Source: Poseidonibacter lekithochrous
GTDB lineage: Bacteria > Campylobacterota > Campylobacteria > Campylobacterales > Arcobacteraceae
Direction: 5' to 3'
Length of the DNA: 64,000 nt
Assembly (NCBI RefSeq): GCF_013283835.1
Contig: NZ_CP054052.1
Span: 3,286,001 to 3,350,000 of the forward strand
This document shows positions 20,936 through 52,210 of this stretch, in pieces. The notes under the pieces are model-generated. The model searched no databases, was not told the origin of the DNA, and saw only the letters and a list, made by a program, of their open reading frames with translations. The translations under genes and the position numbers were made by a program. Within the stretch, counting starts at the first letter, position 1, and every line of letters starts with the position of its first letter.

Positions 20936-21739
20936 CTATATTTTTGGGATAATTATTGTAAAACAAGCACCTTCATTTTTATTTTTAACTTCTAATTTTC
21001 CATTCATATTATTTTGAACAATAAGCCTAGACATAAATAGCCCTATTCCTGAACCATTTAACTTCTCATATGTAAAAAATGGATCAAAAACTTTTTCAAT
21101 TGGTTCTATTTTTACACCACCTGCATTATCTTCAATTGATGTAATTACCTCATTATTTTTTTCTGTAATAAGTATTTTTATTTTAGGGTTTTCTATTTTT
21201 CTTTGAATTAATAGATCTCTTGCATTATTAATAATATTAATTAAAACTTGAGCATATTCATTTTTATATCCAAGTAAAGTAGGATTTTTTTGCAAAATAA
21301 TTTCTAGTTTTATATCATAAGATTTTAAACTACCACTGATAATATTTATAGTTGAGTTAATTTGTTCTAATAATTCAAATTCAATTTTTTCTTTATCATG
21401 TGCAAAAAAGTTTTTAAAATCATCTATAGTATTAGACATATATTTTGTAATATCATTTAACTTATTAATTGATTCTATTAATTCTTTATTATCCACAGGC
21501 ATATCAAGATTTAACTTAGCTTCAATAGGTAAGAATAAAGAAGATATTTCCATTAATGGCTGTCTCCATTGGTGTGAAATATTACCTAACATTTCACCCA
21601 TTGAAGCTAGCTTTGATTGCTGGAACATAAGTCTATCTTTTGCTCTATTCTTTGCTACTTCTTCTTGAAATCTTTTTTCTAATTCTTTATTGTGTTCTTC
21701 TAATTCTAAGAATTCATCAAGTTGTGTTTGTCTCATCAT
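20936..21739 (-). CDS. Soluble sensor histidine kinase downstream of the giant adhesin gene
   Basis: 267 residues with no membrane segment or PAS domain. A coiled coil (about 5-45) leads straight into the dimerisation helix with the H-box GNISHQWRQPLMEISSLF, then an N-box (INIINNARDLL), G1 (DNAGGV) and G2 (GSGIGLFMSRLIV). Such kinases in this phylum often act as the kinase half of a split sensor. It is on the same strand as the adhesin operon, 61 bases beyond it, past a 13-bp hairpin. The orphan OmpR-type regulator at the other end of the locus is its most attractive partner (inference). The ribosome binding site is weak. Confidence 0.85.
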   Translation of the reverse strand: MMRQTQLDEFLELEEHNKELEKRFQEEVAKNRAKDRLMFQQSKLASMGEMLGNISHQWRQPLMEISSLFLPIEAKLNLDMPVDNKELIESINKLNDITKYMSNTIDDFKNFFAHDKEKIEFELLEQINSTINIISGSLKSYDIKLEIILQKNPTLLGYKNEYAQVLINIINNARDLLIQRKIENPKIKILITEKNNEVITSIEDNAGGVKIEPIEKVFDPFFTYEKLNGSGIGLFMSRLIVQNNMNGKLEVKNKNEGACFTIIIPKI

Positions 21740-39800: not shown

Positions 39801-42800
39801 ATATGCTGTTGATGTTTCACCTTCAACAATTGTTTGTTCACCTGCAATTGATACTAAGGCTGTTTCAGTTGTTGGTTCTGTTGTATCTGGATCTTTATCA
39901 TCTACAATTGTTGTATCTACACTATTAGCACCTGTTTTTGCTGCTATGTGCTCAAAGTTACTATCAGTGATAGCTCCAATAGTCATTGTAAATACTTCAG
40001 ACCCTTCTGCTAATACATCATCTAGTGTTGTAATATTGAAATCAACTGAGTTAGATCCTGCTGGAATTGTTACACTTGCAACTTTTGTGAAGTCTTTTCC
40101 ATCTGCTGCTACACCAGAATATGTAATCTCTACTGTAATTGGTGATGTTACATCTGCTGCTGGTTGATCAACGCTTACTGTATATGCTGTTGATGTTTCA
40201 CCTTCAACAATTGTTTGTTCACCTGCAATTGATACTAAGGCTGTTTCAGTTGTTGGTTCTGTTGTATCTGGATCTTTATCATCTACAATTGTTGTATCTA
40301 CACTATTAGCACCTGTTTTTGCTGCTATGTGCTCAAAGTTACTATCAGTGATAGCTCCAATAGTCATTGTAAATACTTCAGACCCTTCTGCTAATACATC
40401 ATCTAGTGTTGTAATATTGAAATCAACTGAGTTAGATCCTGCTGGAATTGTTACACTTGCAACTTTTGTGAAGTCTTTTCCATCTGCTGCTACACCAGAA
40501 TATGTAATCTCTACTGTAATTGGTGATGTTACATCTGCTGCTGGTTGATCAACGCTTACTGTATATGCTGTTGATGTTTCACCTTCAACAATTGTTTGTT
40601 CACCTGCAATTGATACTAAGGCTGTTTCAGTTGTTGGTTCTGTTGTATCTGGATCTTTATCATCTACAATTGTTGTATCTACACTATTAGCACCTGTTTT
40701 TGCTGCTATGTGCTCAAAGTTACTATCAGTGATAGCTCCAATAGTCATTGTAAATACTTCAGACCCTTCTGCTAATACATCATCTAGTGTTGTAATATTG
40801 AAATCAACTGAGTTAGATCCTGCTGGAATTGTTACACTTGCAACTTTTGTGAAGTCTTTTCCATCTGCTGCTACACCAGAATATGTAATCTCTACTGTAA
40901 TTGGTGATGTTACATCTGCTGCTGGTTGATCAACGCTTACTGTATATGCTGTTGATGTTTCACCTTCAACAATTGTTTGTTCACCTGCAATTGATACTAA
41001 GGCTGTTTCAGTTGTTGGTTCTGTTGTATCTGGATCTTTATCATCTACAATTGTTGTATCTACACTATTAGCACCTGTTTTTGCTGCTATGTGCTCAAAG
41101 TTACTATCAGTGATAGCTCCAATAGTCATTGTAAATACTTCAGACCCTTCTGCTAATACATCATCTAGTGTTGTAATATTGAAATCAACTGAGTTAGATC
41201 CTGCTGGAATTGTTACACTTGCAACTTTTGTGAAGTCTTTTCCATCTGCTGCTACACCAGAATATGTAATCTCTACTGTAATTGGTGATGTTACATCTGC
41301 TGCTGGTTGATCAACGCTTACTGTATATGCTGTTGATGTTTCACCTTCAACAATTGTTTGTTCACCTGCAATTGATACTAAGGCTGTTTCAGTTGTTGGT
41401 TCTGTTGTATCTGGATCTTTATCATCTACAATTGTTGTATCTACACTATTAGCACCTGTTTTTGCTGCTATGTGCTCAAAGTTACTATCAGTGATAGCTC
41501 CAATAGTCATTGTAAATACTTCAGACCCTTCTGCTAATACATCATCTAGTGTTGTAATATTGAAATCAACTGAGTTAGATCCTGCTGGAATTGTTACACT
41601 TGCAACTTTTGTGAAGTCTTTTCCATCTGCTGCTACACCAGAATATGTAATCTCTACTGTAATTGGTGATGTTACATCTGCTGCTGGTTGATCAACGCTT
41701 ACTGTATATGCTGTTGATGTTTCACCTTCAACAATTGTTTGTTCACCTGCAATTGATACTAAGGCTGTTTCAGTTGTTGGTTCTGTTGTATCTGGATCTT
41801 TATCATCTACAATTGTTGTATCTACACTATTAGCACCTGTTTTTGCTGCTATGTGCTCAAAGTTACTATCAGTGATAGCTCCAATAGTCATTGTAAATAC
41901 TTCAGACCCTTCTGCTAATACATCATCTAGTGTTGTAATATTGAAATCAACTGAGTTAGATCCTGCTGGAATTGTTACACTTGCAACTTTTGTGAAGTCT
42001 TTTCCATCTGCTGCTACACCAGAATATGTAATCTCTACTGTAATTGGTGATGTTACATCTGCTGCTGGTTGATCAACGCTTACTGTATATGCTGTTGATG
42101 TTTCACCTTCAACAATTGTTTGTTCACCTGCAATTGATACTAAGGCTGTTTCAGTTGTTGGTTCTGTTGTATCTGGATCTTTATCATCTACAATTGTTGT
42201 ATCTACACTATTAGCACCTGTTTTTGCTGCTATGTGCTCAAAGTTACTATCAGTGATAGCTCCAATAGTCATTGTAAATACTTCAGACCCTTCTGCTAAT
42301 ACATCATCTAGTGTTGTAATATTGAAATCAACTGAGTTAGATCCTGCTGGAATTGTTACACTTGCAACTTTTGTGAAGTCTTTTCCATCTGCTGCTACAC
42401 CAGAATATGTAATCTCTACTGTAATTGGTGATGTTACATCTGCTGCTGGTTGATCAACGCTTACTGTATATGCTGTTGATGTTTCACCTTCAACAATTGT
42501 TTGTTCACCTGCAATTGATACTAAGGCTGTTTCAGTTGTTGGTTCTGTTGTATCTGGATCTTTATCATCTACAATTGTTGTATCTACACTATTAGCACCT
42601 GTTTTTGCTGCTATGTGCTCAAAGTTACTATCAGTGATAGCTCCAATAGTCATTGTAAATACTTCAGACCCTTCTGCTAATACATCATCTAGTGTTGTAA
42701 TATTGAAATCAACTGAGTTAGATCCTGCTGGAATTGTTACACTTGCAACTTTTGTGAAGTCTTTTCCATCTGCTGCTACACCAGAATATGTAATCTCTAC

Positions 42801-45365
42801 TGTAATTGGTGATGTTACATCTGCTGCTGGTTGATCAACGCTTACTGTATATGCTGTTGATGTTTCACCTTCAACAATTGTTTGTTCACCTGCAATTGAT
42901 ACTAAGGCTGTTTCAGTTGTTGGTTCTGTTGTATCTGGATCTTTATCATCTACAATTGTTGTATCTACACTATTAGCACCTGTTTTTGCTGCTATGTGCT
43001 CAAAGTTACTATCAGTGATAGCTCCAATAGTCATTGTAAATACTTCAGACCCTTCTGCTAATACATCATCTAGTGTTGTAATATTGAAATCAACTGAGTT
43101 AGATCCTGCTGGAATTGTTACACTTGCAACTTTTGTGAAGTCTTTTCCATCTGCTGCTACACCAGAATATGTAATCTCTACTGTAATTGGTGATGTTACA
43201 TCTGCTGCTGGTTGATCAACGCTTACTGTATATGCTGTTGATGTTTCACCTTCAACAATTGTTTGTTCACCTGCAATTGATACTAAGGCTGTTTCAGTTG
43301 TTGGTTCTGTTGTATCTGGATCTTTATCATCTACAATTGTTGTATCTACACTATTAGCACCTGTTTTTGCTGCTATGTGCTCAAAGTTACTATCAGTGAT
43401 AGCTCCAATAGTCATTGTAAATACTTCAGACCCTTCTGCTAATACATCATCTAGTGTTGTAATATTGAAATCAACTGAGTTAGATCCTGCTGGAATTGTT
43501 ACACTTGCAACTTTTGTGAAGTCTTTTCCATCTGCTGCTACACCAGAATATGTAATCTCTACTGTAATTGGTGATGTTACATCTGCTGCTGGTTGATCAA
43601 CGCTTACTGTATATGCTGTTGATGTTTCACCTTCAACAATTGTTTGTTCACCTGCAATTGATACTAAGGCTGTTTCAGTTGTTGGTTCTGTTGTATCTGG
43701 ATCTTTATCATCTACAATTGTTGTATCTACACTATTAGCACCTGTTTTTGCTGCTATGTGCTCAAAGTTACTATCAGTGATAGCTCCAATAGTCATTGTA
43801 AATACTTCAGACCCTTCTGCTAATACATCATCTAGTGTTGTAATATTGAAATCAACTGAGTTAGATCCTGCTGGAATTGTTACACTTGCAACTTTTGTGA
43901 AGTCTTTTCCATCTGCTGCTACACCAGAATATGTAATCTCTACTGTAATTGGTGATGTTACATCTGCTGCTGGTTGATCAACGCTTACTGTATATGCTGT
44001 TGATGTTTCACCTTCAACAATTGTTTGTTCACCTGCAATTGATACTAAGGCTGTATCTTCTGATGTAATAATATTATTATCAGAAATTGAAGAAGTACCT
44101 GATGCAGTTGTATTAGAAGTAAGTCCTGAAGATAAAGTACCTTCTAAATCAAATGTTTCTAAGGGTTCTTTTAATGCATCATTTAAAGTTTTTACTCTTA
44201 CTTGAACCGAAATATCTCCTGCTGGAATCGTTACAGTAGAAGAATCTACCCATGAACCATTTACTAAAATTTCTGTCTGAGGAAGATAATCATTTGAAGT
44301 AGCACTTCCATCTTTAGTTGCTAATGAAATTGTAATATCTCTGGCACTTGCACTATCTAAATCAACAGTAAATACAGCATATTCACCTTCAATAACTTCA
44401 ACACCTTGAATGCTAAAAGCAGGTAAATTAGTATCTATAATCGTCCCTGTAGCTTGACCATCTGTAATAGTAGCATTAATAGGAGCATCTAAATTAATTA
44501 GTAAGTTTTCTGAGATTTCATAAATATTGTCATTATTAACTGGAATATTTATTGTTTTTGAAACTTCCCCAGGTAAAAATATAATTGAACCAGCTGAAGC
44601 AGTATAATCAAGTCCAGATAAGGCTGTTCCATCTAAAGTAGAATAATTAACTAAAACTGTATTTGTAGTAGCTTGGTCTAAAGTAATAACAAAAGAAATT
44701 TGTCCTGCTGTTTCATTAACAGTAGAATCAGAAATAGAAATAGTAGGGATAACAGGTGTACCGTCTGTTTCAATACCAGTAGAAGAGATTGATTCTGGTA
44801 GGTTAACCCAAGAATCAGAAGTAGCAATAGGAGATAAAGGATCATCAATGTTTCCAAAGATAGTATTAAAAGTAGACCCATCAGAATTAGTGTCACCACC
44901 AGCATCAGGACCAGCTGCTGCTGCACCTAATGAACCAACTAAAGATTCAAAACTAGTAATTAAAGATAAACTATCATCCCCATCAACACCTAATTCAATA
45001 GGTTTTGAAGATAAAAGTGCTAACTGATCTAAAATTTCACTACCATTAAATGCAGTATTCTCCATAATAGTATCAAGAGACTCATCATCAACATTTTTAT
45101 TGATAATTACAGCCGTTGGACTATCCATACCAGGAATATTATCCTGAAGATGAGGAACAATTCCATTTAGTACAACTTGCACTGATTTACCATCAATGTT
45201 GAATACAAGAACTATAGATTCTTGATCATCTTTGAAGTTTAATACATAATTTGTGAAGCCATTAGAGAATACATATTGTTCTCCTTTTGCTACTGTGAAT
45301 TCTAAATCTTTGTTTAGTTCAACAACCTTAATTGAGCCATTTTCAAGTTTTATCGTAAGTTTCAT
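21801..45365 (-). CDS. Giant repetitive type I-secreted adhesin (LapA/BapA-like)
   Basis: 7,854 residues, roughly 0.8 MDa. N-terminal module (1-150) with GAAAAG at about 147-152, resembling a LapG-type di-alanine cleavage site. Two Calx-beta-like domains (about 205-430). About 40 tandem 127-residue Calx-beta-like repeats (about 437-5505). A von Willebrand A domain (about 5670-5860) with MIDAS motif DTSGSMG. Calx-beta and Ig-like domains. Seven ITxLxDGGYVVxW repeats (about 6340-6760). A cadherin-like domain (about 6760-6845). A PA14 domain (about 7010-7175). A C-terminal region ending in NYNVYTGLGANSTVKLLI and DI. No Sec signal and no GGxGxDxxx RTX nonapeptides. The ATG has AAGGA 6 nt upstream. 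It is last in the TolC-ABC-HlyD operon direction. Expected on the cell surface, anchored in the outer-membrane pore, mediating attachment or biofilm formation. Confidence 0.93.
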   Translation of the reverse strand: MKLTIKLENGSIKVVELNKDLEFTVAKGEQYVFSNGFTNYVLNFKDDQESIVLVFNIDGKSVQVVLNGIVPHLQDNIPGMDSPTAVIINKNVDDESLDTIMENTAFNGSEILDQLALLSSKPIELGVDGDDSLSLITSFESLVGSLGAAAAGPDAGGDTNSDGSTFNTIFGNIDDPLSPIATSDSWVNLPESISSTGIETDGTPVIPTISISDSTVNETAGQISFVITLDQATTNTVLVNYSTLDGTALSGLDYTASAGSIIFLPGEVSKTINIPVNNDNIYEISENLLINLDAPINATITDGQATGTIIDTNLPAFSIQGVEVIEGEYAVFTVDLDSASARDITISLATKDGSATSNDYLPQTEILVNGSWVDSSTVTIPAGDISVQVRVKTLNDALKEPLETFDLEGTLSSGLTSNTTASGTSSISDNNIITSEDTALVSIAGEQTIVEGETSTAYTVSVDQPAADVTSPITVEITYSGVAADGKDFTKVASVTIPAGSNSVDFNITTLDDVLAEGSEVFTMTIGAITDSNFEHIAAKTGANSVDTTIVDDKDPDTTEPTTETALVSIAGEQTIVEGETSTAYTVSVDQPAADVTSPITVEITYSGVAADGKDFTKVASVTIPAGSNSVDFNITTLDDVLAEGSEVFTMTIGAITDSNFEHIAAKTGANSVDTTIVDDKDPDTTEPTTETALVSIAGEQTIVEGETSTAYTVSVDQPAADVTSPITVEITYSGVAADGKDFTKVASVTIPAGSNSVDFNITTLDDVLAEGSEVFTMTIGAITDSNFEHIAAKTGANSVDTTIVDDKDPDTTEPTTETALVSIAGEQTIVEGETSTAYTVSVDQPAADVTSPITVEITYSGVAADGKDFTKVASVTIPAGSNSVDFNITTLDDVLAEGSEVFTMTIGAITDSNFEHIAAKTGANSVDTTIVDDKDPDTTEPTTETALVSIAGEQTIVEGETSTAYTVSVDQPAADVTSPITVEITYSGVAADGKDFTKVASVTIPAGSNSVDFNITTLDDVLAEGSEVFTMTIGAITDSNFEHIAAKTGANSVDTTIVDDKDPDTTEPTTETALVSIAGEQTIVEGETSTAYTVSVDQPAADVTSPITVEITYSGVAADGKDFTKVASVTIPAGSNSVDFNITTLDDVLAEGSEVFTMTIGAITDSNFEHIAAKTGANSVDTTIVDDKDPDTTEPTTETALVSIAGEQTIVEGETSTAYTVSVDQPAADVTSPITVEITYSGVAADGKDFTKVASVTIPAGSNSVDFNITTLDDVLAEGSEVFTMTIGAITDSNFEHIAAKTGANSVDTTIVDDKDPDTTEPTTETALVSIAGEQTIVEGETSTAYTVSVDQPAADVTSPITVEITYSGVAADGKDFTKVASVTIPAGSNSVDFNITTLDDVLAEGSEVFTMTIGAITDSNFEHIAAKTGANSVDTTIVDDKDPDTTEPTTETALVSIAGEQTIVEGETSTAYTVSVDQPAADVTSPITVEITYSGVAADGKDFTKVASVTIPAGSNSVDFNITTLDDVLAEGSEVFTMTIGAITDSNFEHIAAKTGANSVDTTIVDDKDPDTTEPTTETALVSIAGEQTIVEGETSTAYTVSVDQPAADVTSPITVEITYSGVAADGKDFTKVASVTIPAGSNSVDFNITTLDDVLAEGSEVFTMTIGAITDSNFEHIAAKTGANSVDTTIVDDKDPDTTEPTTETALVSIAGEQTIVEGETSTAYTVSVDQPAADVTSPITVEITYSGVAADGKDFTKVASVTIPAGSNSVDFNITTLDDVLAEGSEVFTMTIGAITDSNFEHIAAKTGANSVDTTIVDDKDPDTTEPTTETALVSIAGEQTIVEGETSTAYTVSVDQPAADVTSPITVEITYSGVAADGKDFTKVASVTIPAGSNSVDFNITTLDDVLAEGSEVFTMTIGAITDSNFEHIAAKTGANSVDTTIVDDKDPDTTEPTTETALVSIAGEQTIVEGETSTAYTVSVDQPAADVTSPITVEITYSGVAADGKDFTKVASVTIPAGSNSVDFNITTLDDVLAEGSEVFTMTIGAITDSNFEHIAAKTGANSVDTTIVDDKDPDTTEPTTETALVSIAGEQTIVEGETSTAYTVSVDQPAADVTSPITVEITYSGVAADGKDFTKVASVTIPAGSNSVDFNITTLDDVLAEGSEVFTMTIGAITDSNFEHIAAKTGANSVDTTIVDDKDPDTTEPTTETALVSIAGEQTIVEGETSTAYTVSVDQPAADVTSPITVEITYSGVAADGKDFTKVASVTIPAGSNSVDFNITTLDDVLAEGSEVFTMTIGAITDSNFEHIAAKTGANSVDTTIVDDKDPDTTEPTTETALVSIAGEQTIVEGETSTAYTVSVDQPAADVTSPITVEITYSGVAADGKDFTKVASVTIPAGSNSVDFNITTLDDVLAEGSEVFTMTIGAITDSNFEHIAAKTGANSVDTTIVDDKDPDTTEPTTETALVSIAGEQTIVEGETSTAYTVSVDQPAADVTSPITVEITYSGVAADGKDFTKVASVTIPAGSNSVDFNITTLDDVLAEGSEVFTMTIGAITDSNFEHIAAKTGANSVDTTIVDDKDPDTTEPTTETALVSIAGEQTIVEGETSTAYTVSVDQPAADVTSPITVEITYSGVAADGKDFTKVASVTIPAGSNSVDFNITTLDDVLAEGSEVFTMTIGAITDSNFEHIAAKTGANSVDTTIVDDKDPDTTEPTTETALVSIAGEQTIVEGETSTAYTVSVDQPAADVTSPITVEITYSGVAADGKDFTKVASVTIPAGSNSVDFNITTLDDVLAEGSEVFTMTIGAITDSNFEHIAAKTGANSVDTTIVDDKDPDTTEPTTETALVSIAGEQTIVEGETSTAYTVSVDQPAADVTSPITVEITYSGVAADGKDFTKVASVTIPAGSNSVDFNITTLDDVLAEGSEVFTMTIGAITDSNFEHIAAKTGANSVDTTIVDDKDPDTTEPTTETALVSIAGEQTIVEGETSTAYTVSVDQPAADVTSPITVEITYSGVAADGKDFTKVASVTIPAGSNSVDFNITTLDDVLAEGSEVFTMTIGAITDSNFEHIAAKTGANSVDTTIVDDKDPDTTEPTTETALVSIAGEQTIVEGETSTAYTVSVDQPAADVTSPITVEITYSGVAADGKDFTKVASVTIPAGSNSVDFNITTLDDVLAEGSEVFTMTIGAITDSNFEHIAAKTGANSVDTTIVDDKDPDTTEPTTETALVSIAGEQTIVEGETSTAYTVSVDQPAADVTSPITVEITYSGVAADGKDFTKVASVTIPAGSNSVDFNITTLDDVLAEGSEVFTMTIGAITDSNFEHIAAKTGANSVDTTIVDDKDPDTTEPTTETALVSIAGEQTIVEGETSTAYTVSVDQPAADVTSPITVEITYSGVAADGKDFTKVASVTIPAGSNSVDFNITTLDDVLAEGSEVFTMTIGAITDSNFEHIAAKTGANSVDTTIVDDKDPDTTEPTTETALVSIAGEQTIVEGETSTAYTVSVDQPAADVTSPITVEITYSGVAADGKDFTKVASVTIPAGSNSVDFNITTLDDVLAEGSEVFTMTIGAITDSNFEHIAAKTGANSVDTTIVDDKDPDTTEPTTETALVSIAGEQTIVEGETSTAYTVSVDQPAADVTSPITVEITYSGVAADGKDFTKVASVTIPAGSNSVDFNITTLDDVLAEGSEVFTMTIGAITDSNFEHIAAKTGANSVDTTIVDDKDPDTTEPTTETALVSIAGEQTIVEGETSTAYTVSVDQPAADVTSPITVEITYSGVAADGKDFTKVASVTIPAGSNSVDFNITTLDDVLAEGSEVFTMTIGAITDSNFEHIAAKTGANSVDTTIVDDKDPDTTEPTTETALVSIAGEQTIVEGETSTAYTVSVDQPAADVTSPITVEITYSGVAADGKDFTKVASVTIPAGSNSVDFNITTLDDVLAEGSEVFTMTIGAITDSNFEHIAAKTGANSVDTTIVDDKDPDTTEPTTETALVSIAGEQTIVEGETSTAYTVSVDQPAADVTSPITVEITYSGVAADGKDFTKVASVTIPAGSNSVDFNITTLDDVLAEGSEVFTMTIGAITDSNFEHIAAKTGANSVDTTIVDDKDPDTTEPTTETALVSIAGEQTIVEGETSTAYTVSVDQPAADVTSPITVEITYSGVAADGKDFTKVASVTIPAGSNSVDFNITTLDDVLAEGSEVFTMTIGAITDSNFEHIAAKTGANSVDTTIVDDKDPDTTEPTTETALVSIAGEQTIVEGETSTAYTVSVDQPAADVTSPITVEITYSGVAADGKDFTKVASVTIPAGSNSVDFNITTLDDVLAEGSEVFTMTIGAITDSNFEHIAAKTGANSVDTTIVDDKDPDTTEPTTETALVSIAGEQTIVEGETSTAYTVSVDQPAADVTSPITVEITYSGVAADGKDFTKVASVTIPAGSNSVDFNITTLDDVLAEGSEVFTMTIGAITDSNFEHIAAKTGANSVDTTIVDDKDPDTTEPTTETALVSIAGEQTIVEGETSTAYTVSVDQPAADVTSPITVEITYSGVAADGKDFTKVASVTIPAGSNSVDFNITTLDDVLAEGSEVFTMTIGAITDSNFEHIAAKTGANSVDTTIVDDKDPDTTEPTTETALVSIAGEQTIVEGETSTAYTVSVDQPAADVTSPITVEITYSGVAADGKDFTKVASVTIPAGSNSVDFNITTLDDVLAEGSEVFTMTIGAITDSNFEHIAAKTGANSVDTTIVDDKDPDTTEPTTETALVSIAGEQTIVEGETSTAYTVSVDQPAADVTSPITVEITYSGVAADGKDFTKVASVTIPAGSNSVDFNITTLDDVLAEGSEVFTMTIGAITDSNFEHIAAKTGANSVDTTIVDDKDPDTTEPTTETALVSIAGEQTIVEGETSTAYTVSVDQPAADVTSPITVEITYSGVAADGKDFTKVASVTIPAGSNSVDFNITTLDDVLAEGSEVFTMTIGAITDSNFEHIAAKTGANSVDTTIVDDKDPDTTEPTTETALVSIAGEQTIVEGETSTAYTVSVDQPAADVTSPITVEITYSGVAADGKDFTKVASVTIPAGSNSVDFNITTLDDVLAEGSEVFTMTIGAITDSNFEHIAAKTGANSVDTTIVDDKDPDTTEPTTETALVSIAGEQTIVEGETSTAYTVSVDQPAADVTSPITVEITYSGVAADGKDFTKVASVTIPAGSNSVDFNITTLDDVLAEGSEVFTMTIGAITDSNFEHIAAKTGANSVDTTIVDDKDPDTTEPTTETALVSIAGEQTIVEGETSTAYTVSVDQPAADVTSPITVEITYSGVAADGKDFTKVASVTIPAGSNSVDFNITTLDDVLAEGSEVFTMTIGAITDSNFEHIAAKTGANSVDTTIVDDKDPDTTEPTTETALVSIAGEQTIVEGETSTAYTVSVDQPAADVTSPITVEITYSGVAADGKDFTKVASVTIPAGSNSVDFNITTLDDVLAEGSEVFTMTIGAITDSNFEHIAAKTGANSVDTTIVDNDSLSMNIDSVQVDEDALLGTDDLDNYDPDIKEFTGSLGLNVENVAEVNLMFEGGQSTSLTSKGEMIDINYSNNNETIKGVSKDGREIFEITLDESTGEYTFKLKDVVDHPDVTSEDLISNIDFNVIAVRGSDITASKINISIADDIPTANTVVIDADSQYTETTTNIVIGIDTSGSMGTTKMNLAKEAAIKLIEKYEQMGNVNVKVVEFNTNASATTWFTDSQSAKDSINGLSAGGYTNYEDTLRQTIDTFDTNSDPKPSADQDIFYMLSDGDPTKGDMNGSDGISGIVPEWKTFAENNFDDVYSIGIGTNVDLDGNSRGSLDQIADVANGHDTFVVKNVNELTDELLATIVNVNGVLVINTGGNELDFSFGADGPADGSGPKLDGGKLSFTWGDGDLSDGSGVIINNGDGTGPNLVWTVFNNGKVILGKDATSGQILVKIEANNVNSDNPTYEVTQFVPNTGITKVEVPFTVVDGDGDGATANLSIDIDSNFKAFVKLSGDSTVAEANGATLEHTLSLVDQNGTAINLREGQVVTVELKYENDSTESNDFTSAKTVTAVITGTAGGVNTVQIINNIQNDSVYEGDESYTLSIESISSNVAGLGTIFAHETNGVKDSVTGTITDEFDNIKAEVSIVDSDDINTVVDASSGTVETAKITGAINFGDTITKLVVTNGSQKVEIDPANVTVQPDGTFTIENVDVSTLNDGVLTVELEVQNSSGNTASDTDTVSKDTISEISITSASIDHMTGLASGTVTDVEPGRTISIKFIDDGGYEVRTTTTVKPDGTWEISEDVSSLTHGNIKIGVFVNDNAGNPGQTCEEDIGVLNTVIANDDYGKDVEQGEIVIAKAVNADQGTPDITYLEDGGYVVVWEEVNGASYNGAEYNNDTESTQWATRENHDIFSQRFDKDGEPVGDAIQVNTHDARDQHDANVTALPNGRYLVTWTSDDDYINVDNYDNSSRYIKARIYDEHNNPVCNEFTVARAEYDPIVGLPDGGFIVTWSADARHNNTDQGAQDNPIHSDVHDGSEYGVFGQRYDEFGNAMGDKFQINTHTLNDQMDSDITLDSNGDVVITWQSENQDGSSYGIYTQKFELTSNGVTKVGDEKQVNTTTNGSQTDPEITALTDGKAVITWESGTDVYAQILDENGAKVGMELDVTTSSGVQSNPVVTAISTGFIITWQSNENGNHDIYSQRFNSSGSEIGDKVKVNSSDISDQVEPTITTLSDGGYIIAWQNGDNISAQRFNADGTTYKVNSLDLDEDTSITIDVADLMANDTDPESHNFKITAVSNAQNGTVVLNDTNNDGTYDSVTFTPNEDYNGPATFVYTLTDEKGAVDTATVHLDVKPKGEPSVFVGTLCDADVKGHDITVNEGEDAILAVRVSGAEAGTTLSLTLSDGTALNTVDYNSTFYYAFVSDSTDMNNITWIEYTGAVNVPEDSSRLIVKTVTVDDSNDEVNELYNLTATLSTGETNTGTVTIVDNDEPGTPPEANDRHIDLDCSTDTYTAGLKSEYYGVDSQIHNLTEFKAIVSANDPDATFTATNINYGYGTGSVGLGTNLQTFLKGDASSLSNDPADSSDAGIKLYGKVFLAAGTYNFKVYSDDGYDIKVNGQNVADFESNQSPGTKVHDEFTIAEDGYYDIEMLWWDQGGAYVFQPQISSDGGATYKFLDSSMLFTEDTSSNDETAIEFKMEDFVSDVEDDASSTIVKIRIDSLPEDGVLTVNGTAVKVGDIYDETAVIKYTANSNIEDTLYGTTADSGTLAEWGTITNGVITTADGNATIKAYNNGVIGEVGFSSENNNNSHDGLGLGVVSPDGDDDQIEGSSGEKLVVEFKEIVTNAEIGLSSLGTYFTSDSIDSKAHWVAFKNGVEVASGDVQQSTGDSNDTTNSFKIDTEFDKIEFTSVSTLNANYSIQYMNIDYKVDDSFDYVAIDSDNRESESAKVTIDLETTGCTIRDHSAESTDLSLVLGQATVIDGGSRDLPDVTQTHPIGVVLGDQKGDSNIYGSTPSDYDESYSKLLNFGIENAGKTVTLSMDVTINGSWNYGSGYYDDNWSVFVNSEQKAIYKYSSDNGSNPDDYTEVTNNGVTQYRYGNSGENSNISNFTHTTIPIVVTLNAQGKANVVLAASSTEKAEKVTINSITSVLDGGVEELPDTYVYPIDIAAVLSDTDGSETLTVRLEGVPSSAVFTSSMTLTDKGNGIWEIEIPAGQKSIDADITMRISESDNDFNLVAIAKSTESENSSETETMTFSDETIDLESIAKPSYEIDTLDLENNIRQTISLDLDDVIDLTDSDNELVIKGDLSDKVDLDNTEWTNSGTQEIDGSNYNVYTGLGANSTVKLLIDDDIEITPDI
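28851..44054 (-). repeat. Tandem array, about 40 copies of a 381-bp unit inside the adhesin gene
   Basis: The 381-bp period (127 codons) repeats for 15,204 bp, i.e. 39.9 units. Homology stops at ATCTACAATT on the left and at GATACTAAGGCTGT on the right; the last unit lacks the short PDTTEPTTE linker. All 40 antisense reading frames are also identical, so silent changes are absent at least over that 222-bp part of each unit. Five 60-base rows I counted average about 37% G+C, richer than the surrounding DNA. Each unit encodes one Calx-beta-like domain (ALVSIAGEQTIVEGETSTAY near its start). Confidence 0.97.
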
Positions 45366-45388
45366 TTGTTATCCTTAGTTTCTGCTTC

Positions 45389-45565
45389 TTATATATCTAC
45401 TACAATTTCTTTATTTATAAATAATTTAACCAATGCTTTATCACCAGTACCGTGATAAACATCATACATTTTGCTATCTAGAATCTCAGACTTATCTTTG
45501 ATCCATTCATTGCTATGCGTGTCAATTATATTTGCTACCATTTTTTTGTCATTTTTATCTATCAT
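45389..45565 (-). CDS. 58-residue protein resembling the C-terminus of the giant adhesin
   Basis: The frame starts at an ATG at 45565 with AAGG 6 nt upstream and ends at 45389, 23 bases before the adhesin start. Its last 38 residues align with the last 40 of the adhesin: EW...D...Y-VY-G-G....VKL-I...I...DI (Y-DVYHGTG against Y-NVYTGLG, VKLFI against VKLLI), 15 identities with one two-residue gap. The shared segment is where a type I secretion signal would lie. It may be a free-standing secreted mini-substrate, a regulator or plug of the exporter, or a relic of a duplicated adhesin end. I know of no named family. It is intact and has normal translation signals. Confidence 0.75.
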   Translation of the reverse strand: MIDKNDKKMVANIIDTHSNEWIKDKSEILDSKMYDVYHGTGDKALVKLFINKEIVVDI

Positions 45566-45607
45566 TTTAAACCTTGTTTTAGAAAAAAATATCTTAAGTA
45601 TATAAAT

Positions 45608-45613
45608 ATTATA
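45608..45613 (-). promoter_or_regulatory. Possible promoter -10 for the mini-gene and adhesin gene
   Basis: TATAAT on the minus strand, 43 bases before the mini-gene start, with no good -35 at 17 bp. It lies between the hairpin after the HlyD gene and the mini-gene. If active it would allow the adhesin to be expressed separately from its exporter. The rest of 45566-45710 shows nothing else I recognise. Confidence 0.4.
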
Positions 45614-45701
45614 GGAATAAAGTCTCTAAAAAGTTTTTATAGGAGGAAATAATAAAGAAATTTATCATTTCTTTTAATAATTTAGTAAGTTTTTTTATTA
45701 G

Positions 45702-45733
45702 TGATGAAAAATAAGTTAATTTTACTAACTTAT
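45702..45733 (-). terminator. Probable terminator after the HlyD-family gene
   Basis: An 8-bp stem, ATAAGTTA (45711-45718) with TAACTTAT (45726-45733), and a 7-nt loop, followed on the minus strand by TTTTCATC. The HlyD stop codon lies inside the stem. It would separate exporter transcription from adhesin transcription. Confidence 0.6.
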
Positions 45734-47274
45734 CTTTCGTGTAGAGAGTCTTGTTTTACTTTAAGTATTGGTTTTAATAAGAAGTCTAAAATAGTCTTTT
45801 TCCCAGTTACGATATCAACACTAGCAACCATTCCTGGGATAATTGGTAATCTTATTCCTTGTCTTTCAAGGTAGTTTTTGTCAGTTTTAACTAAAACCCT
45901 ATAATAACTTTTACCTTCTTTTGATTCTTTATCAACAATACTATCTGCTGATATTTCAATAATTTTACCATCTAATCCACCATAAATTGAAAAATCATAT
46001 GCTGTTATTTTAATAATGGCTTTTTGGCTAGGATTAATAAAAGCAATATCTTTAGGATCAATCTTAGCTTCAACAACTAAGGCATCACTTAAAGGTACAA
46101 TTTCTATTAATTCCATTCCTGATTGAACAACTCCACCAATAGTATTCAGATTTAATTGTTTAACAATTCCATCAACAGGAGAAGTAATAACTGTTCTTGC
46201 AACCTTATCTTCATCCCCTACTAATTTTGCTTCAAATCTATTAATTTGACTTAATGTCTGTTGCAATTCATTTGAAGCTTCTGCTCTAAAAGTATTTATC
46301 CTCTCAGAAATTCTATGTTTTGCTTCTGCTATTGCATAAGTAGATCTAGAAATAGATAATCTAGCTGTTTCTAAATCACCTCTTGTTTGGGTATGTTCTT
46401 TTTCAATATTTAATAAATCGTATTTAGATTTAATCCCTCTTGCTACAAGTTTTTTTATAGTTTTTCTTTGTTCAATAATAAACTTTAAACTTTGCTCAAG
46501 TTTTCTAATATTACTTTCTATCTCTTTTTGTTCTTGAATTTTTTGATTTAATTGAGTATCAAGAACTCTAACTGACGATTTTAATTCTCTAAATTTATTT
46601 TCTAGAAAAAGCATTTCTGAAAGGTCATATCTTGAAGGATCTTCAATAACTTTTTTATCAAACTTTACTTTTGGTAAAGGTTTATTTATTTCTATATTTG
46701 ATTCTATTACAAGTCTAGTTTTTAAAGCTAAAAGAGAATAATACTCTTGTAAACTTTCTTCTAATGTAGCTTGAAACCTTGTAGTATCAATCTTCATTAA
46801 AGAGTCACCTTTTTTTACTGTTTGTCCTTCTTTTACAGATATCTCAGAAATAATACCACCATCTAAAGATTGAACCGTTTGAATTTTATCAGTTGGGATA
46901 ACTTTACCATTTCCTCTTGCTAATTCATCAATTTGAGCAAAAGTAGCCCATAATAAAAATGATATGAAAATACCAACTACTAATAAAAAAACATAATTAG
47001 CTCGACTAGAAGGTTCTTCATTAGATGCAGAATAACTTGAATAAACAAAATCTAAATCTTCTTCTTCATTAGATAAGCCATATAATCTTCTTACCCAATT
47101 AAAAAAACCTCTTTTTTTTACCTTTTTTACCTCTTCAACAGAATCATCATCATTTTGAGTTAAAGTATCTTCTAGTTTTTTTTCTTCAGTAGTTTTAGTA
47201 CTTGAAGAATCAACATCAACAATAGTTAAATGATCTGGATTTTCAATTATTTCTTCTTTTTTTTCAATATCCAT
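45730..47274 (-). CDS. Type I secretion membrane fusion protein (HlyD/LapC family)
   Basis: 514 residues. An acidic cytoplasmic N-terminus of about 90 residues, longer than in typical HlyD proteins, precedes one membrane helix (about 93-112: YVFLLVVGIFISFLLWATF). A lipoyl/barrel-sandwich half follows (GNGKVIPTDKIQTVQSLDGG, KEGQTVKKGD), then a long coiled-coil hairpin (about 180-350) and the closing half (VIIS-like TSPVDGIVKQLNLNT, IPGMVASVDI). It bridges the inner-membrane ABC exporter and the TolC-like pore. Encoded six bases after the ABC gene. Confidence 0.93.
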   Translation of the reverse strand: MDIEKKEEIIENPDHLTIVDVDSSSTKTTEEKKLEDTLTQNDDDSVEEVKKVKKRGFFNWVRRLYGLSNEEEDLDFVYSSYSASNEEPSSRANYVFLLVVGIFISFLLWATFAQIDELARGNGKVIPTDKIQTVQSLDGGIISEISVKEGQTVKKGDSLMKIDTTRFQATLEESLQEYYSLLALKTRLVIESNIEINKPLPKVKFDKKVIEDPSRYDLSEMLFLENKFRELKSSVRVLDTQLNQKIQEQKEIESNIRKLEQSLKFIIEQRKTIKKLVARGIKSKYDLLNIEKEHTQTRGDLETARLSISRSTYAIAEAKHRISERINTFRAEASNELQQTLSQINRFEAKLVGDEDKVARTVITSPVDGIVKQLNLNTIGGVVQSGMELIEIVPLSDALVVEAKIDPKDIAFINPSQKAIIKITAYDFSIYGGLDGKIIEISADSIVDKESKEGKSYYRVLVKTDKNYLERQGIRLPIIPGMVASVDIVTGKKTILDFLLKPILKVKQDSLHER

Positions 47275-47280
47275 AATTAC

Positions 47281-49434
47281 CTACTTTGTCGTAAATACTT
47301 CATTTTTTGGTCCATCAACAACAACTTGCCCATTTTCTACAATAATAACTCTATCAACCAATTGAAGTAAAGAAGTTTTGTGAGTAACCACAATCAAAGT
47401 CTTATTATCAACTATTTCTTTCATTTTCTTAATAAATGATTTCTCAGTTTGTCTATCCATTGAGTTAGTTGGCTCATCAAGCATAATAATATTAGGATCA
47501 GAGATTAAAGCTCTTGCTAATGTTACAGATTGTCTCTCTCCACCTGATAAACCTTCACCTCTCTCACCTACTAATAAATCATATCCAGCTTCATGTTTAC
47601 CTAGAAATTCATCTAGTCCTGCAATTTTTGAAACTCTTAAAAGTTCTTCATCAGAAACATATTGTTCCCCAATAGTTAGGTTATCTTTAATTGTACCCAT
47701 GAATAAAAATGGTTCTTGAGGAACTGAACCAATTGCATGTCTTAAATCAGTTGGGTCAATTTGTCTAGTATCTAAACCATCCACTAAAACGGAACCTTTT
47801 GTCGGTTCGTATAAATTCATAATTAATTTTAAAAGAGTTGATTTTCCAGAACCAATTTTTCCTAAAATAGCAACTCGCTCACCTTGTTTAATAGTAAGAT
47901 TAATATTTTTTAGAGTTTCATGATTTTGATCTTTATAAGAAAAATTAAGATCTTTTAACTGAATACTACCCTTTAGATTTGGTCTACTAATATAACTTTT
48001 ATTCTCTTTTTCAACAGGCATTTTCATAATTTCATCAAGATTATTTAGAGATAACATTGTTTTATCAAACTTAATTATCATTCCAACTAATTGAGAAACA
48101 GGAGCAATTACTCTTCCATTTAATATCATCGCGGCAATGATTGCACCCATTGTAATTTCACCATCTTGAGCTAAATAAACTCCACCTGCAACAATAGCAA
48201 TGTTAGAAAACTGAGAAATAAAAGCAGTAAAATAAGTAATACTTTGAGATAAAAAATGACTCTTATCAGAATAATGTACTGTTTTATTAATCGAATTATC
48301 CCAATGTGTTTTCATTCTATTTTGAGCTTTTACACTTTTAATAATTTCTAATCCAGATACTGCTTCGATTAAAGTTGTTTGTTTGATCTGTTCTTCTTTT
48401 ACAGATTTTTCAATTAAGGACTTTAAAGGTTTTTGCATATACCAAGATAATAAAATAGAAATAAGTACCGTAAATACTGTGATATAAGCAAGTGGCCCTG
48501 CTATATAAATTATTACTACAATAAAAATCAATACAAAAGGTAGATCAACAACAGCCGTGATTGTGGCACTTGTAAAGAATTCTCTAACACTTTCAAAAGA
48601 CTGTAATCTACTAATAAACTGCCCTGTTGAAGAGGGTTTTGCATCCATTTTAATATTTAAGAGATGATTAAAAATCATATTAGACATTACCGTATCTGCT
48701 CGTTTACTAGCAATTCCTAAAAAATGGGATCTTAAAACTTTTAGTATAAAATCAAAAACCATAACAATAGTAATTCCAAAAAATAATACCCATAATGTTT
48801 CAATTGCATTATTTGGTAAAACTCTATCATAAACATTCATTGTAAAAAGAGGTGTAGCTAAAATAAAAATATTAATAAATAAAGATACAATCATTACTTG
48901 TTTGTAAATACCTTTATTTCTGAACATTGTTCCCCAAAACCATTCTTTTGGATTTTCAACAACAACTTCTTTTTCAATTCTATTATTAAAATTGTATTCT
49001 GGTTTTATAATAATTACTTCACCATTAAACTCAGATTCTAGTTTAGAAATAGACATACTTGTTTCACCAGTACTTAGACCTGGCAAAATTACACTTGCAG
49101 TATCGTTTTCTAAATCATAGTCAAGTAAAACACAGGCTCTATTCTTTTTTAGAATTAAAACAGAAGGTAAAGCAAGTTTTGTAATGTCATTAAGATTATT
49201 TCGTTTTACAGTTTTAGTTATTAAACCAATTTTTTGAGCAGCTTCTTGGAACATAGATATGTTCATTGAAGTATTATGAATAGGCAACCCAAAAGTTACA
49301 GACTCTGCAGAAGTCTCCCTTTTGTGATACTTAGACAAAAAAAGTAGACAACCAAGAAGGTCATCTACTTTTCTTCTGTCTTTTAGATTTTTTAATGTTT
49401 CATTTCCAATTTGCGTTGAATCATTATTTTCCAA
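47281..49434 (-). CDS. Type I secretion ABC exporter with C39-like domain (LapB-like)
   Basis: 717 residues. The N-terminal domain (about 20-155) has the fold pattern of a C39 peptidase-like domain but shows no catalytic Cys in the expected position, as in LapB and HlyB, where it binds substrate instead of cleaving it. Six helices (about 175-445) and the nucleotide-binding domain follow: Walker A GKIGSGKST, signature LSGGERQSVTLARAL, Walker B NIIMLDEPT, H-loop VVTHKT. It powers export of the giant adhesin. Located between the TolC and HlyD genes. Confidence 0.95.
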   Translation of the reverse strand: MENNDSTQIGNETLKNLKDRRKVDDLLGCLLFLSKYHKRETSAESVTFGLPIHNTSMNISMFQEAAQKIGLITKTVKRNNLNDITKLALPSVLILKKNRACVLLDYDLENDTASVILPGLSTGETSMSISKLESEFNGEVIIIKPEYNFNNRIEKEVVVENPKEWFWGTMFRNKGIYKQVMIVSLFINIFILATPLFTMNVYDRVLPNNAIETLWVLFFGITIVMVFDFILKVLRSHFLGIASKRADTVMSNMIFNHLLNIKMDAKPSSTGQFISRLQSFESVREFFTSATITAVVDLPFVLIFIVVIIYIAGPLAYITVFTVLISILLSWYMQKPLKSLIEKSVKEEQIKQTTLIEAVSGLEIIKSVKAQNRMKTHWDNSINKTVHYSDKSHFLSQSITYFTAFISQFSNIAIVAGGVYLAQDGEITMGAIIAAMILNGRVIAPVSQLVGMIIKFDKTMLSLNNLDEIMKMPVEKENKSYISRPNLKGSIQLKDLNFSYKDQNHETLKNINLTIKQGERVAILGKIGSGKSTLLKLIMNLYEPTKGSVLVDGLDTRQIDPTDLRHAIGSVPQEPFLFMGTIKDNLTIGEQYVSDEELLRVSKIAGLDEFLGKHEAGYDLLVGERGEGLSGGERQSVTLARALISDPNIIMLDEPTNSMDRQTEKSFIKKMKEIVDNKTLIVVTHKTSLLQLVDRVIIVENGQVVVDGPKNEVFTTK

Positions 49435-49456: not shown

Positions 49457-51277
49457 CTAGTGATATTTTGCATATAATTTTTGATGTTTATCTACATTGT
49501 CGATATAAGGTCCACCTGCTTTTATAGCTTCAGGTAAATTTGATAATGCAATTTTTGCTTCTTTTATTGAAGTAAATATACCATAAAGAACCTTTGCACT
49601 TTTCATTTCAGGTCCAAATTCATAAGTAAATGAAGAGCCTTCATCTAAGCCTCTTTCATTAACATAATTTTTAGCTTGAGATAAACCATTAGTTGTAGCA
49701 ATATTAATTGTATAGTTTTCTGATGATGTATTTAAAAATGCTGGTTCATCCTCGCTAGAAGTTTCCATACTAGAATCAGCAAGTAAATCTTCTTCAGGAG
49801 ATTTTTCTGTACTTTCATCTAATTCAAGTTCAGCTTCTTCAATTTTCTCTTTTTCAGACTCATTAGCTAAATCATCACCTAATAAAGCACTTAATTCATC
49901 AGAAACATCTTCTTCTTTTGGAATCATTTCTTTTTTGTTTTCTATTTTTTTATCTTGAGAAACAATACACGCTTTAACATCTGATTCCAAAACTGATTTT
50001 GTAAGAGTAGATAATGAATTTAATAAAGTATAATAATTTGAGTATAATTCAAATTCTCTGTTAACTAAACTTTTTTCAGCTTCATATAAAACTGTTTGAG
50101 CATCTAAGATATCAACAAAAGTTCTAGTACCAGATTCAAATTCACTTTTATATACTTCTACAATATTTTCATTTGCATATACATATTTTTTTAGAATTTC
50201 TATTCTTTCTTTATTTTTTTTGTATCTTTGATAAACTACTTTTACTTCTTCAACAACTTTTTTAGTAATTGAATCTAATCTTTCTTTTTGTTCTGATAAG
50301 AAAACATCTTCTTGTTTAGAAACAGCATGATCTCCACTACCATTATAAAGATTCCAAGCTAAAGTAATTCGACCAAAGGCTTGATTTTCAACACCCTCTT
50401 CATTTAATGATAAATCATTATCAGTTATAGCTTTTAATTCAAGATTTAACGTAGGTAAAAATGCAGCATCAGCTTGTGCTATTTTTTCTCTTTGAGCTTT
50501 AATTCTTTCGATTTGCTCTTGAACTTCATAATTATTTAATACAGCTTGTCTAACTGTTTCTTGTAATGTTTTTGGAATATGTAATTCATTAATTGAAGGT
50601 CTACACTCTTTTCCATCAGATTCCATACCAACATATCTTTTAAATGTGCTGTTTCGTGAACTTTTAATATCTCTTTCTTCAAGATATTTTTCTTTTACAA
50701 AACTAAGTTTTGATTCTACTTGATATGTTTCTAGGATTTCACCACTTATTGCTTCTTTTTCTTTTGCAATTGCTAAGTTTTCTTCATTTGTTGCAATCAT
50801 TACTTGAGTTAAACCAAGAAGTTCTCTATATTGAACTAATCCTGTATATGCATTGATTGTTTGAAAAATTACATCATCAATATTTTTATCTGTTCTATAT
50901 TTGTTTGCTAAATTGTTGTATTCTGCTTCTCTTACTTGACTAGGAGTTAAATCACCATCATATAAAATCTGATTAAGAGCAATACCAAAATTGTATCCAT
51001 CTTCTTGATCTGAGCCATCAGAGTTAGCAGATGTTTTATCATATTGCTTATCAGAAGTACTTTGTTCAACTCTACCATCTAAATCAATTCTAGGGTAGAA
51101 ATTTCCTTCTCTTTCATCAATATAATATTTAAAGGCATCTTTATTCTTTTTCTCAGCAATAACTTCTGGATTCTTTTCTAATACTCTTTGCACAGACTCT
51201 TTTAAACTTAAGCCGTATAACGAAGATGAAGCTAGAAAAGAAAGACATGTAAATTTAAATAGTTTTTTAATATACAT
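49457..51277 (-). CDS. TolC-family outer-membrane protein with C-terminal SPOR domain
   Basis: 606 residues. A signal peptide (FTCLSFLASSSLYGLS) and a TolC/LapE-type efflux domain up to about residue 430 (SLKESVQRVLEKNPEV, later YEAEKSLVNREFELYSNYYTLLNSL). An acidic linker of about 90 residues rich in Glu/Asp/Ser comes next. The last 75 residues (NYTINIATTNGLSQAKNYV, YGIFTSIKEAKIALSNLP) resemble a SPOR peptidoglycan-binding domain. It provides the outer-membrane pore for the adhesin and, in LapA-like systems, the structure in which the adhesin's N-terminus is retained. First gene of the leftward secretion operon; AGGAGAA lies 5 nt before the ATG. Confidence 0.9.
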   Translation of the reverse strand: MYIKKLFKFTCLSFLASSSLYGLSLKESVQRVLEKNPEVIAEKKNKDAFKYYIDEREGNFYPRIDLDGRVEQSTSDKQYDKTSANSDGSDQEDGYNFGIALNQILYDGDLTPSQVREAEYNNLANKYRTDKNIDDVIFQTINAYTGLVQYRELLGLTQVMIATNEENLAIAKEKEAISGEILETYQVESKLSFVKEKYLEERDIKSSRNSTFKRYVGMESDGKECRPSINELHIPKTLQETVRQAVLNNYEVQEQIERIKAQREKIAQADAAFLPTLNLELKAITDNDLSLNEEGVENQAFGRITLAWNLYNGSGDHAVSKQEDVFLSEQKERLDSITKKVVEEVKVVYQRYKKNKERIEILKKYVYANENIVEVYKSEFESGTRTFVDILDAQTVLYEAEKSLVNREFELYSNYYTLLNSLSTLTKSVLESDVKACIVSQDKKIENKKEMIPKEEDVSDELSALLGDDLANESEKEKIEEAELELDESTEKSPEEDLLADSSMETSSEDEPAFLNTSSENYTINIATTNGLSQAKNYVNERGLDEGSSFTYEFGPEMKSAKVLYGIFTSIKEAKIALSNLPEAIKAGGPYIDNVDKHQKLYAKYH

Positions 51278-51496: not shown

Positions 51497-52210
51497 ATGG
51501 CTGAAAATCATGAAAATCAAAATCTTTCTAACATTCTTAAAAAATTAACTATTTTATATATAGAAGATGAACAAAACATCAGAGAAAATGTAAAAAAAGT
51601 TTTATTACTTTTATGTGAAAATGTTTTTGATGTAGAAAGTGTAAATGATGCCAAGTCCATACTAGAAAACAATCGTATTGACATTATAATTTCAGATATA
51701 AATCTACCAGGAGAAAATGGTTTAGATTTTATTGAAAGTATTAGAACAGTTGATAAGATTATTCCGGTTATTTTACTTAGTGCTTATACTGATACAAAAT
51801 ACCTATTAGCCGCTACTAAACTGAAATTAATTGACTATTTAACAAAACCAATTGACTTTAAAATACTTAATAATGCTTTACATAAATGTGTTCAAGATAT
51901 TGTTGATAGTTCAAGGTATATAATATCTTTTTCAAAGAAAATTCAATATAACGTTTTATATAAAAAATTATATGATAGTCAATCAGAAATCGAAATTACA
52001 TTAACTGCAAAAGAGCTAGAATTATTAGACTATTTAATTCTACATAGTAACAGAATTGTTTCTCAAGATGAATTAAAAAACAATATATGGAAAGACTCTT
52101 TTGACGCTACAGATTCTGCTTTAAAAAACCTACTAAATAAACTAAGAAAAAAAATTGGTAAAGAATCAATTATTAATATTTCTGGGGTTGGATATCGCTT
52201 AGATATTTAA
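51497..52210 (+). CDS. OmpR-family response regulator divergent from the secretion operon
   Basis: 237 residues. The receiver (about 15-130) has the acidic cluster IEDEQN, the phospho-acceptor Asp in IIISDINLPGENG and the Lys in YLTKPIDF. The winged-helix domain (about 160-237: LTAKELELLDYLILHSNRIV, SALKNLLNKLRKKIG, ISGVGYRLDI) is of the OmpR/PhoB type. The ribosome binding site AAAGG precedes the ATG by 8 nt. It is divergent from the tolC gene over a 219-bp region and has no adjacent kinase; the soluble kinase at the far end of the locus could be its partner. It may control the adhesin system. Confidence 0.88.
   Translation: MAENHENQNLSNILKKLTILYIEDEQNIRENVKKVLLLLCENVFDVESVNDAKSILENNRIDIIISDINLPGENGLDFIESIRTVDKIIPVILLSAYTDTKYLLAATKLKLIDYLTKPIDFKILNNALHKCVQDIVDSSRYIISFSKKIQYNVLYKKLYDSQSEIEITLTAKELELLDYLILHSNRIVSQDELKNNIWKDSFDATDSALKNLLNKLRKKIGKESIINISGVGYRLDI

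Follow-up and report, generated by a model that had tools for sequence, protein, structure and literature searches.

A conserved small gene before a giant LapA-like adhesin of Poseidonibacter lekithochrous encodes a free-standing homologue of the adhesin C-terminal module

Several small proteins are natural substrates of type I secretion: microcins and glycine-zipper bacteriocins are functional cargo with the exporter encoded nearby, the microcins carrying N-terminal GG leaders. HasA is likewise a small protein whose type I machine is encoded nearby, and HlyAc, an engineered signal piece of HlyA without the toxin part, keeps the RTX repeats. HlyAc consists of the 218 C-terminal HlyA residues and is described as secreted by the exporter (passages of PMC4648471). 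For HlyA itself, the last 50-60 residues are reported to hold the export information and to be necessary as well as sufficient, and a role in triggering the assembly of the channel has been proposed for them; the same passages describe the type I signal as sufficient, its code and steps being unclear (excerpts of PMC8870123). Binding of HlyA via its C-terminal signal has been proposed to bring HlyD to TolC (in part of PMC3034196), and a signal-bearing fusion is described as competing with a second substrate, inhibiting its export (passages of PMC4648471). Searches of an open-licence library listed no title or abstract opening that points to a free-standing homologue of an adhesin secretion signal, which is weak evidence of absence. 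The locus presented here is made of parts of known kinds; what is new is a separately encoded, selectively kept, signal-like module.

The locus lies in a stretch of 64,000 nucleotides of P. lekithochrous DNA (the window; contig NZ_CP054052.1, positions 3,286,001 to 3,350,000), from a genome of 3.57 Mb on a single contig. The gene order on the minus strand is TolC-type protein, LssB-type ABC transporter, HlyD-type protein, a 58-codon ORF (referred to as the mini-gene, and its product as the mini-protein), a 7854-aa adhesin and a histidine-kinase-like protein; a response regulator gene is divergent from the TolC-type gene and upstream of it. The features are the following:

51497..52210, plus strand: OmpR/PhoB-type response regulator (Response_reg and Trans_reg_C), candidate binder of the 21-bp element listed further below
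49457..51277, minus strand: TolC-type outer membrane protein (PF02321, 125 bits, cut-off 22; TIGR01844, 186 bits, below the cut-off of 225)
47281..49434, minus strand: LssB/LapB-type ABC transporter with a C39-like N-terminal domain (TIGR03375, 881 bits, cut-off 693; Peptidase_C39 match)
45730..47274, minus strand: HlyD-type membrane fusion protein (TIGR01843, 393 bits, cut-off 209)
45389..45565, minus strand: mini-gene for a protein of 58 aa that is free-standing and homologous to the adhesin C-terminal module (alignment, conservation in seven genomes, coding-type substitutions)
21801..45365, minus strand: giant LapA-like adhesin of 7854 aa (Calx-beta; SLGAAAAGPD near residue 148)
21804..21989, minus strand: adhesin C-terminal module, the last 62 residues, resembled by the mini-protein (alignments)
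20936..21739, minus strand: histidine-kinase-like protein 3' of the adhesin (HATPase_c)

SLGAAAAGPD and a Calx-beta domain are both found in the N-terminal part of the adhesin, and the RTX nonapeptide pattern GG.G.D.[LIVFYWM] matches nowhere in the protein. Four matches to Peptidase_C93 (LapG-type) exceed the cut-off in the genome, none of them in the window; together with these LapG-type proteases, SLGAAAAGPD is a putative di-alanine cleavage site, and the locus looks like a LapA-type retained adhesin system. By analogy with type I secretion in general, the adhesin C-end would be its secretion signal. In relatives the adhesin is also followed by a 266-aa homologue (by eye) of the histidine-kinase-like protein. 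Two further observations concern the window: the adhesin (21801-45365) contains a long array of repeats of about 120 residues, identical by eye, and on the strand opposite to longer genes there are open frames of 104-145 codons at 11541-11978 (+), 14275-14589 (+), 28159-28524 (+) and 53999-54328 (-), probably by chance.

The mini-gene runs from 45565 to 45389 on the minus strand, with an ATG start, 58 amino acids and a TAA stop. The preliminary description had taken it to be intact and to encode, on its own, a homologue of the adhesin C-terminal region, and this holds: the similarity is beyond chance. BLASTP of the 58-mer against the last 299 residues of the adhesin gives 14/41 identical and 23/41 positive positions (E 2e-7, single comparison). 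The best local alignment against the whole 7854-aa protein pairs mini-protein residues 14-56 with adhesin residues 7808-7850, stopping four residues before the adhesin C-terminus, and its score of 77 was reached by none of 1000 shuffles of the mini-protein (mean 38, maximum 65). When 166 window ORFs of 40-90 aa were compared with the last 62 adhesin residues, the mini-gene scored 77 and the runner-up 31. The preliminary alignment had covered the last 38 residues of the mini-protein; the similarity is weak, but with relatives aligned it spans most of the 58 residues, nearly all of the mini-protein being set against the adhesin terminal module. A W, a D, Y-x-V-Y, G-x-G, a K and two I are common to the mini-proteins and most adhesin ends, whereas IKGD and VDG, typical of the adhesin ends, are lost in the mini-proteins; the N-terminal third of the mini-protein is poorly conserved. 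At its extreme C-terminus the mini-protein is related to the C-end of the adhesin, itself a presumed substrate, and no nonapeptide repeats (GGxGxDxU, RTX type) were seen by eye in the mini-protein. A single-sequence search of the whole genome (E<=10) returned the mini-protein itself and the C-end of this adhesin only (E 4.5e-4, 30% identity), and profile searches reached one further C-end, that of another giant frame (E 0.014; with a wider profile, 7.5e-9). That frame, of 5328 codons (region G000:C1:1861787-1861957), has the same C-terminal module, so that several adhesins may share one signal type.

Compared with the described systems, the mini-protein resembles the end of a LapA-type adhesin in its homologous sequence and in being encoded at the same locus as an LssB/LapB-type exporter; unlike such an end, it is separately encoded, has no passenger, belongs to a clade of its own and is devoid of IKGD and VDG. 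Its length is in the class of the 50-60-residue HlyA signal (excerpts of PMC8870123). With HlyAc it shares the character of a signal piece without the toxin part, but it is natural, of 58 aa and free of repeats. With HasA it shares small size and a type I machine encoded nearby; HasA is functional cargo, whereas the mini-protein is a homologue of the C-end of a giant cargo.

The seven mini-proteins known from the searches described below contain no Cys and no Pro (7/7), and six have a pI of 4.05-4.21, that of the window being less acidic (pI 5.50, net charge -2); the adhesin ends are similar in composition, also without Cys and with a pI of 4.05-4.51. The window's mini-protein matched no Pfam family (E<=1) and no NCBIfam family (E<=10), and no two of 17 mini-protein and adhesin-end sequences share a family of either collection at E<=1. 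AlphaFold2, run on a four-row alignment, predicts three strands at about residues 21-51 (block pLDDT 73-85; overall pLDDT 66.9, pTM 0.51). The adhesin-end model has strands in the same places and order at low confidence (mean pLDDT 47), an agreement that is not independent, as its alignment contained mini-proteins. Foldseek with the medium-confidence mini-protein model returned nothing significant (best E 0.51), nor did a PDB sequence search with a profile of 12 adhesin ends (best E 0.13).

A protein search in ten genomes of the genus matched seven, five of which, the window's genome included, have a free-standing ORF. In 104 genomes of the family, a profile search (E<=1) matched 66, and strong free-standing copies (E<1e-15, frames below 100 codons) were present in seven: G000, G001, G002, G004 and G009 (g1), G045 (g5) and G093 (g17), where G and g labels denote genomes and genera in the analysis and G000 is the window's genome. 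The remaining family matches better than E 1e-5 fall in frames of 186 to 8295 codons, the match in G050 being a 186-codon frame that runs off its contig. The seven mini-proteins are 57-61 aa long, come from three genera of Arcobacteraceae, and are all encoded between hlyD and the adhesin ATG (7/7), the mini-gene stop being followed after 14-29 nt by the MKLTI start of the adhesin. The preliminary description had linked a decaying fragment to a lack of homologues beside other adhesins and of translation; the profile search found homologues in seven genomes, in the same place.

Wider, even sampling was made in the order (398 genomes drawn, 5/7 mini-bearing ones included; 20 matched at E<=0.01) and, with a wider profile, in the phylum (397 genomes drawn, again 5/7 included; 59 matched at E<=0.05), and no further free-standing copy was upheld there on inspection by eye. 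Weak short-frame matches were left out, namely G036, G077, G079, G087, G088, G091, G102, G041 and G033:C60 in the family, and G573, with stops, in the phylum. Other short frames were rejected as mini-genes: those of G122 and G316 (phylum search) prove to be C-ends in the vicinity of adhesin-like frames that are interrupted, G033:C82 holds a piece of 34 codons from an adhesin-like C-end at a contig edge, and those of G232 (order search) and G053 (which has two stops) bear no relation to it; none of the five lies in an hlyD-adhesin gap. In G122 (about 3864-4127 of the locus) and G316 (1854-2288) the adhesin-like C-ends stand in frames separate from the long bodies, so the reading frames appear interrupted near the end. 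Plasmid-borne relatives were also discarded: the DNA of the window's gap matched 40 plasmid records over at most 20% of the query among the matches listed, which looks like chance in A+T-rich DNA, and the mini-protein of a relative had no matches in plasmids.

In the close pairs, the mini-gene has evolved like a coding sequence. Between G002 and G009, the closest pair, 0/57, 0/57 and 10/57 differences fall at codon positions 1, 2 and 3, besides one codon indel. For G002-G004, dN is 0.060 and dS 0.56 (dN/dS about 0.11), and for G004-G009 dN is 0.067 and dS 0.77 (about 0.09). Constraint is weak in some pairs (G001-G009, dN 0.19, dS 0.37; G001-G045, dN 0.60, dS 0.67), the distant pairs being near or past saturation. 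On these substitution patterns, the mini-gene is under selection at the protein level. We take the ORF to be a genuine gene, small and conserved, and probably short enough for annotation to miss.

Upstream of the mini-gene, the gap contains the following candidate signals:

45706..45738, minus strand: strong hairpin over the hlyD stop, possible terminator (folding energy)
45616..45636, minus strand: 21-bp element AAACTTTTTAGAGACTTTATT, with two copies of ACTTT at a spacing of 11 bp, probable activator site (conservation, placement)
45608..45613, minus strand: TATAAT, probable -10 box, 2 nt past the element (sequence)
45572..45575, minus strand: AAGG, probable ribosome-binding site of the mini-gene (kept in 7/7)

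Where the hlyD-adhesin gap is intact (21 genomes), 15 genomes have exactly this element and six differ from it by a single base, the surrounding DNA being variable. With at most one mismatch it occurs at 45 places in 33/104 family genomes, singly in 25 of these, while a reversed control pattern was found in three genomes. Inspection covered 30 of the 45 places. At 13 of these, an adhesin start of the MK[LI]TI type comes no more than about 75 nt further on, or else a frame leads into one; four are the mini-gene locus (G000, G001, G045, G093); four begin long frames that carry the C-end module by position (G021, G041, G088, G090); two begin other long frames (G096, G098); one begins a frame of 265 codons that is closed (G043); and six have another start or none (G025, G042, G067, G097, G003 and a second site in G002). 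The element thus precedes giant adhesin genes in several genera of Arcobacteraceae. In many relatives it is succeeded by a hexamer resembling TATAAT, which in some is degenerate (e.g., G019, G026, G014). Direct repeats spaced by 11 bp are typical of OmpR/PhoB-type regulators, and the regulator of this type beside the exporter genes is a candidate binder.

The mini-gene of the window starts about 50 nt past the element, and AAGG occurs within 22 nt 5' of the ATG in 7/7 mini-genes; the adhesin has an SD-like sequence of its own (by eye). In 14 genomes of genus g2, devoid of the mini-gene, the element stands immediately before the adhesin, and in the seven mini-bearing genomes the two are separated by the mini-gene. 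The adhesin mRNA therefore probably has the mini-gene as its first cistron, in a single transcript that would comprise the mini-gene, the 14-29 nt and the adhesin. A sigma-70 scan found four sites against 3.0 expected from shuffles and did not pick up the TATAAT 3' of the element, which would be natural for a promoter where an activator takes the place of the -35 box. The best sigma-70-like site (11/12, ATGACA-N16-TATAAT, 45552-45525 on the minus strand) is inside the mini-gene in the direction of the adhesin, which might thus also be transcribed without the mini-gene; patterns of this quality are near chance in the window (two found, 1.94 expected), and the other six mini-genes have their best internal matches (9-11 of 12) at other places. 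The hairpin at the hlyD stop (-13.5 kcal/mol, z -6.8, 0/200 shuffles as good) has an inverted repeat at the same place in relatives (by eye). Its role as a terminator is uncertain, since no U run follows the stem in the window and a terminator scan found none. A known RNA element was rejected for the mini-gene region, Rfam giving no match at E<=1 in 45000-46200.

The distribution of the mini-gene was read against hlyD, for which 64 of the 104 family genomes matched at E<=1e-100; the hlyD-adhesin gap was read in the best 30 of these 64 loci, one per genome. The mini-gene is present between hlyD and adhesin in seven. Another 14, all of genus g2, have the adhesin directly after hlyD (gap 109-133 nt) and no mini-gene; in G005, whose hlyD is 95% identical, the contig ends 96 nt past hlyD; and eight (genera g3 and g10) have no adhesin start of this type within 1.5 kb. 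Because 14/14 of the g2 genomes examined have the same hlyD-adhesin arrangement without the gene, the mini-gene is not needed for export as such, and at least eight of the 14 have an adhesin with the same C-end. On the hlyD tree, where the truncated G005 is scored as lacking the gene, a single clade holds the 14 g2 genomes, and the lineages with the mini-gene stand beside it in no firm branching order; one gain with one loss in g2 and more than one gain are each possible.

The origin of the mini-gene and its relation to the adhesin ends can be judged from a tree of the seven mini-proteins and 17 adhesin C-ends (30 loci were tried, and 13 gave none by the filter and were dropped). The mini-proteins form one clade (100/99.9, a rough bootstrap on few columns), compatible with one origin. 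In core DNA, a mini-gene is as similar to its own adhesin end (0.583, n=7; range 0.53-0.63) as to foreign ends (0.582, n=112), mini-genes among themselves reaching 0.73 (n=21), so that, on identity and tree together, the mini-gene has long evolved on its own. Core protein identity to the own adhesin is 0.26-0.53; cores were compared ungapped, so that the two adhesin ends that are one residue longer (G045 and G035b) come out too dissimilar, and the value of 0.26, from G045, is too low for this reason. The preliminary description had proposed that the mini-gene donates sequence to adhesin ends by recombination. A homologous stretch at a distance of 23.6 kb from the adhesin end would suit this role, but separate clades and equal own and foreign identity leave no sign of gene conversion; the proposal fails and we consider it extremely improbable. 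Two g2 genomes (G035; G021:C1 2059566-2080560) have tandem giant adhesins 3' of the same hlyD, each with its own 21-bp element. Such tandem adhesins with this C-end make loss of an upstream adhesin body a plausible origin, and a possible one, for the mini-gene. That the gene is at present a decaying remnant of a former upstream adhesin is, however, rejected, and hardly to be credited: it is intact in 7/7 genomes, its substitutions follow a coding, third-position pattern, and its clade is its own.

What the mini-protein does can be proposed from its place and kinship. The usual bacterial translation rates allow seconds for 58 residues and minutes for 7854. With the mini-gene 5' of the 7854-codon frame on the presumed mRNA, the 58-mer would be finished within seconds and the adhesin only after minutes, the peptide thus being complete long before the first adhesin. 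It would then be the first to meet the LssB-HlyD exporter, via the surface that recognises the adhesin C-end, would trigger or keep the assembly of the export channel, would probably be exported too, and would thereby set the number or order of channels ready for the adhesin. The reading that we favour, tentatively, is hence that of an exporter ligand that primes or meters adhesin export and is probably itself exported; transcription unit, exporter recognition, export and priming are here inferred. Constant place and length, coding-type selection, homology to the extreme C-end, the promoter-like element, AAGG and a composition like that of the adhesin ends are in keeping with this reading. Co-secretion, and competition for or priming of the exporter, which the preliminary description had raised, are thus kept as hypotheses. 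The size of the HlyA signal, its proposed trigger role and the competition between substrates suggest that a free signal of 58 residues is of the right size to act in trans on an exporter, and it is this literature and the early completion that place the exporter ligand first. Recognition may have changed, given the low identity of the mini-protein to the own adhesin (0.26-0.53, the lower value understated) and the loss of IKGD and VDG. The less acidic copy of the window, the weak constraint in some pairs and the lack of the gene in the 14 g2 genomes also count against this reading. The internal promoter-like site does not alter how the readings are ranked, since it has to do with the mRNA rather than with the target of the peptide.

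Next in rank come two other roles of the peptide, each of them unlikely. Homologous small beta modules often pair, and the mini-protein might bind the adhesin C-end or another region as a chaperone, cap or tip subunit; the adhesin C-end would leave the cell first and should end at the far tip. The predicted three strands, in the same order as in the low-confidence and not independent adhesin-end model, would agree with such a partner, whereas the at least eight of 14 g2 genomes that keep the same adhesin C-end without the mini-gene speak against it. Alternatively, the free signal might occupy or disassemble exporters in trans, so capping the number of adhesins in passage at one time. Such a cap would make sense for an adhesin of the LapA type, which remains lodged in its outer-membrane channel, and the four LapG-type Peptidase_C93 matches are consistent with a retained adhesin. 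A signal-bearing fusion is described as inhibiting the export of a co-expressed substrate (passages of PMC4648471), but the competing passenger there folded fast and stalled the channel, whereas a 58-mer should pass quickly. The account of the HasA system ties the signal to disassembly of the complex and not to its assembly (in the part of PMC11026475 cited), which favours such a brake or recycler and counts against priming. An effect of translation itself is improbable: the short gap and the location in the 5' leader would suit a mini-ORF whose translation opens or paces the adhesin start 14-29 nt downstream, the peptide being secondary, but selection acts on amino acids (third-position differences only in the closest pair), including C-terminal residues needless for a leader, the adhesin has its own SD-like sequence, and Rfam has no match. 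That the peptide acts as a protein, which is common to the exporter ligand, the brake and the adhesin partner, is supported by the selection pattern.

Evolution appears to have detached a signal from the cargo it served and to have maintained it in three genera, and the mini-protein is a natural 58-residue reagent for how type I exporters recognise, or are readied for, proteins of several thousand residues. The near-invariant 21-bp element, for its part, is a candidate switch by which these giant adhesins may be turned on. More doubtful than the exporter ligand in general is a natural, dedicated "pilot signal", made first from the mRNA of its cargo and pre-assembling, clearing or metering the exporter for the giant adhesin; if true, it would add a trans-acting signal step to a pathway thought to need exporter and substrate only.
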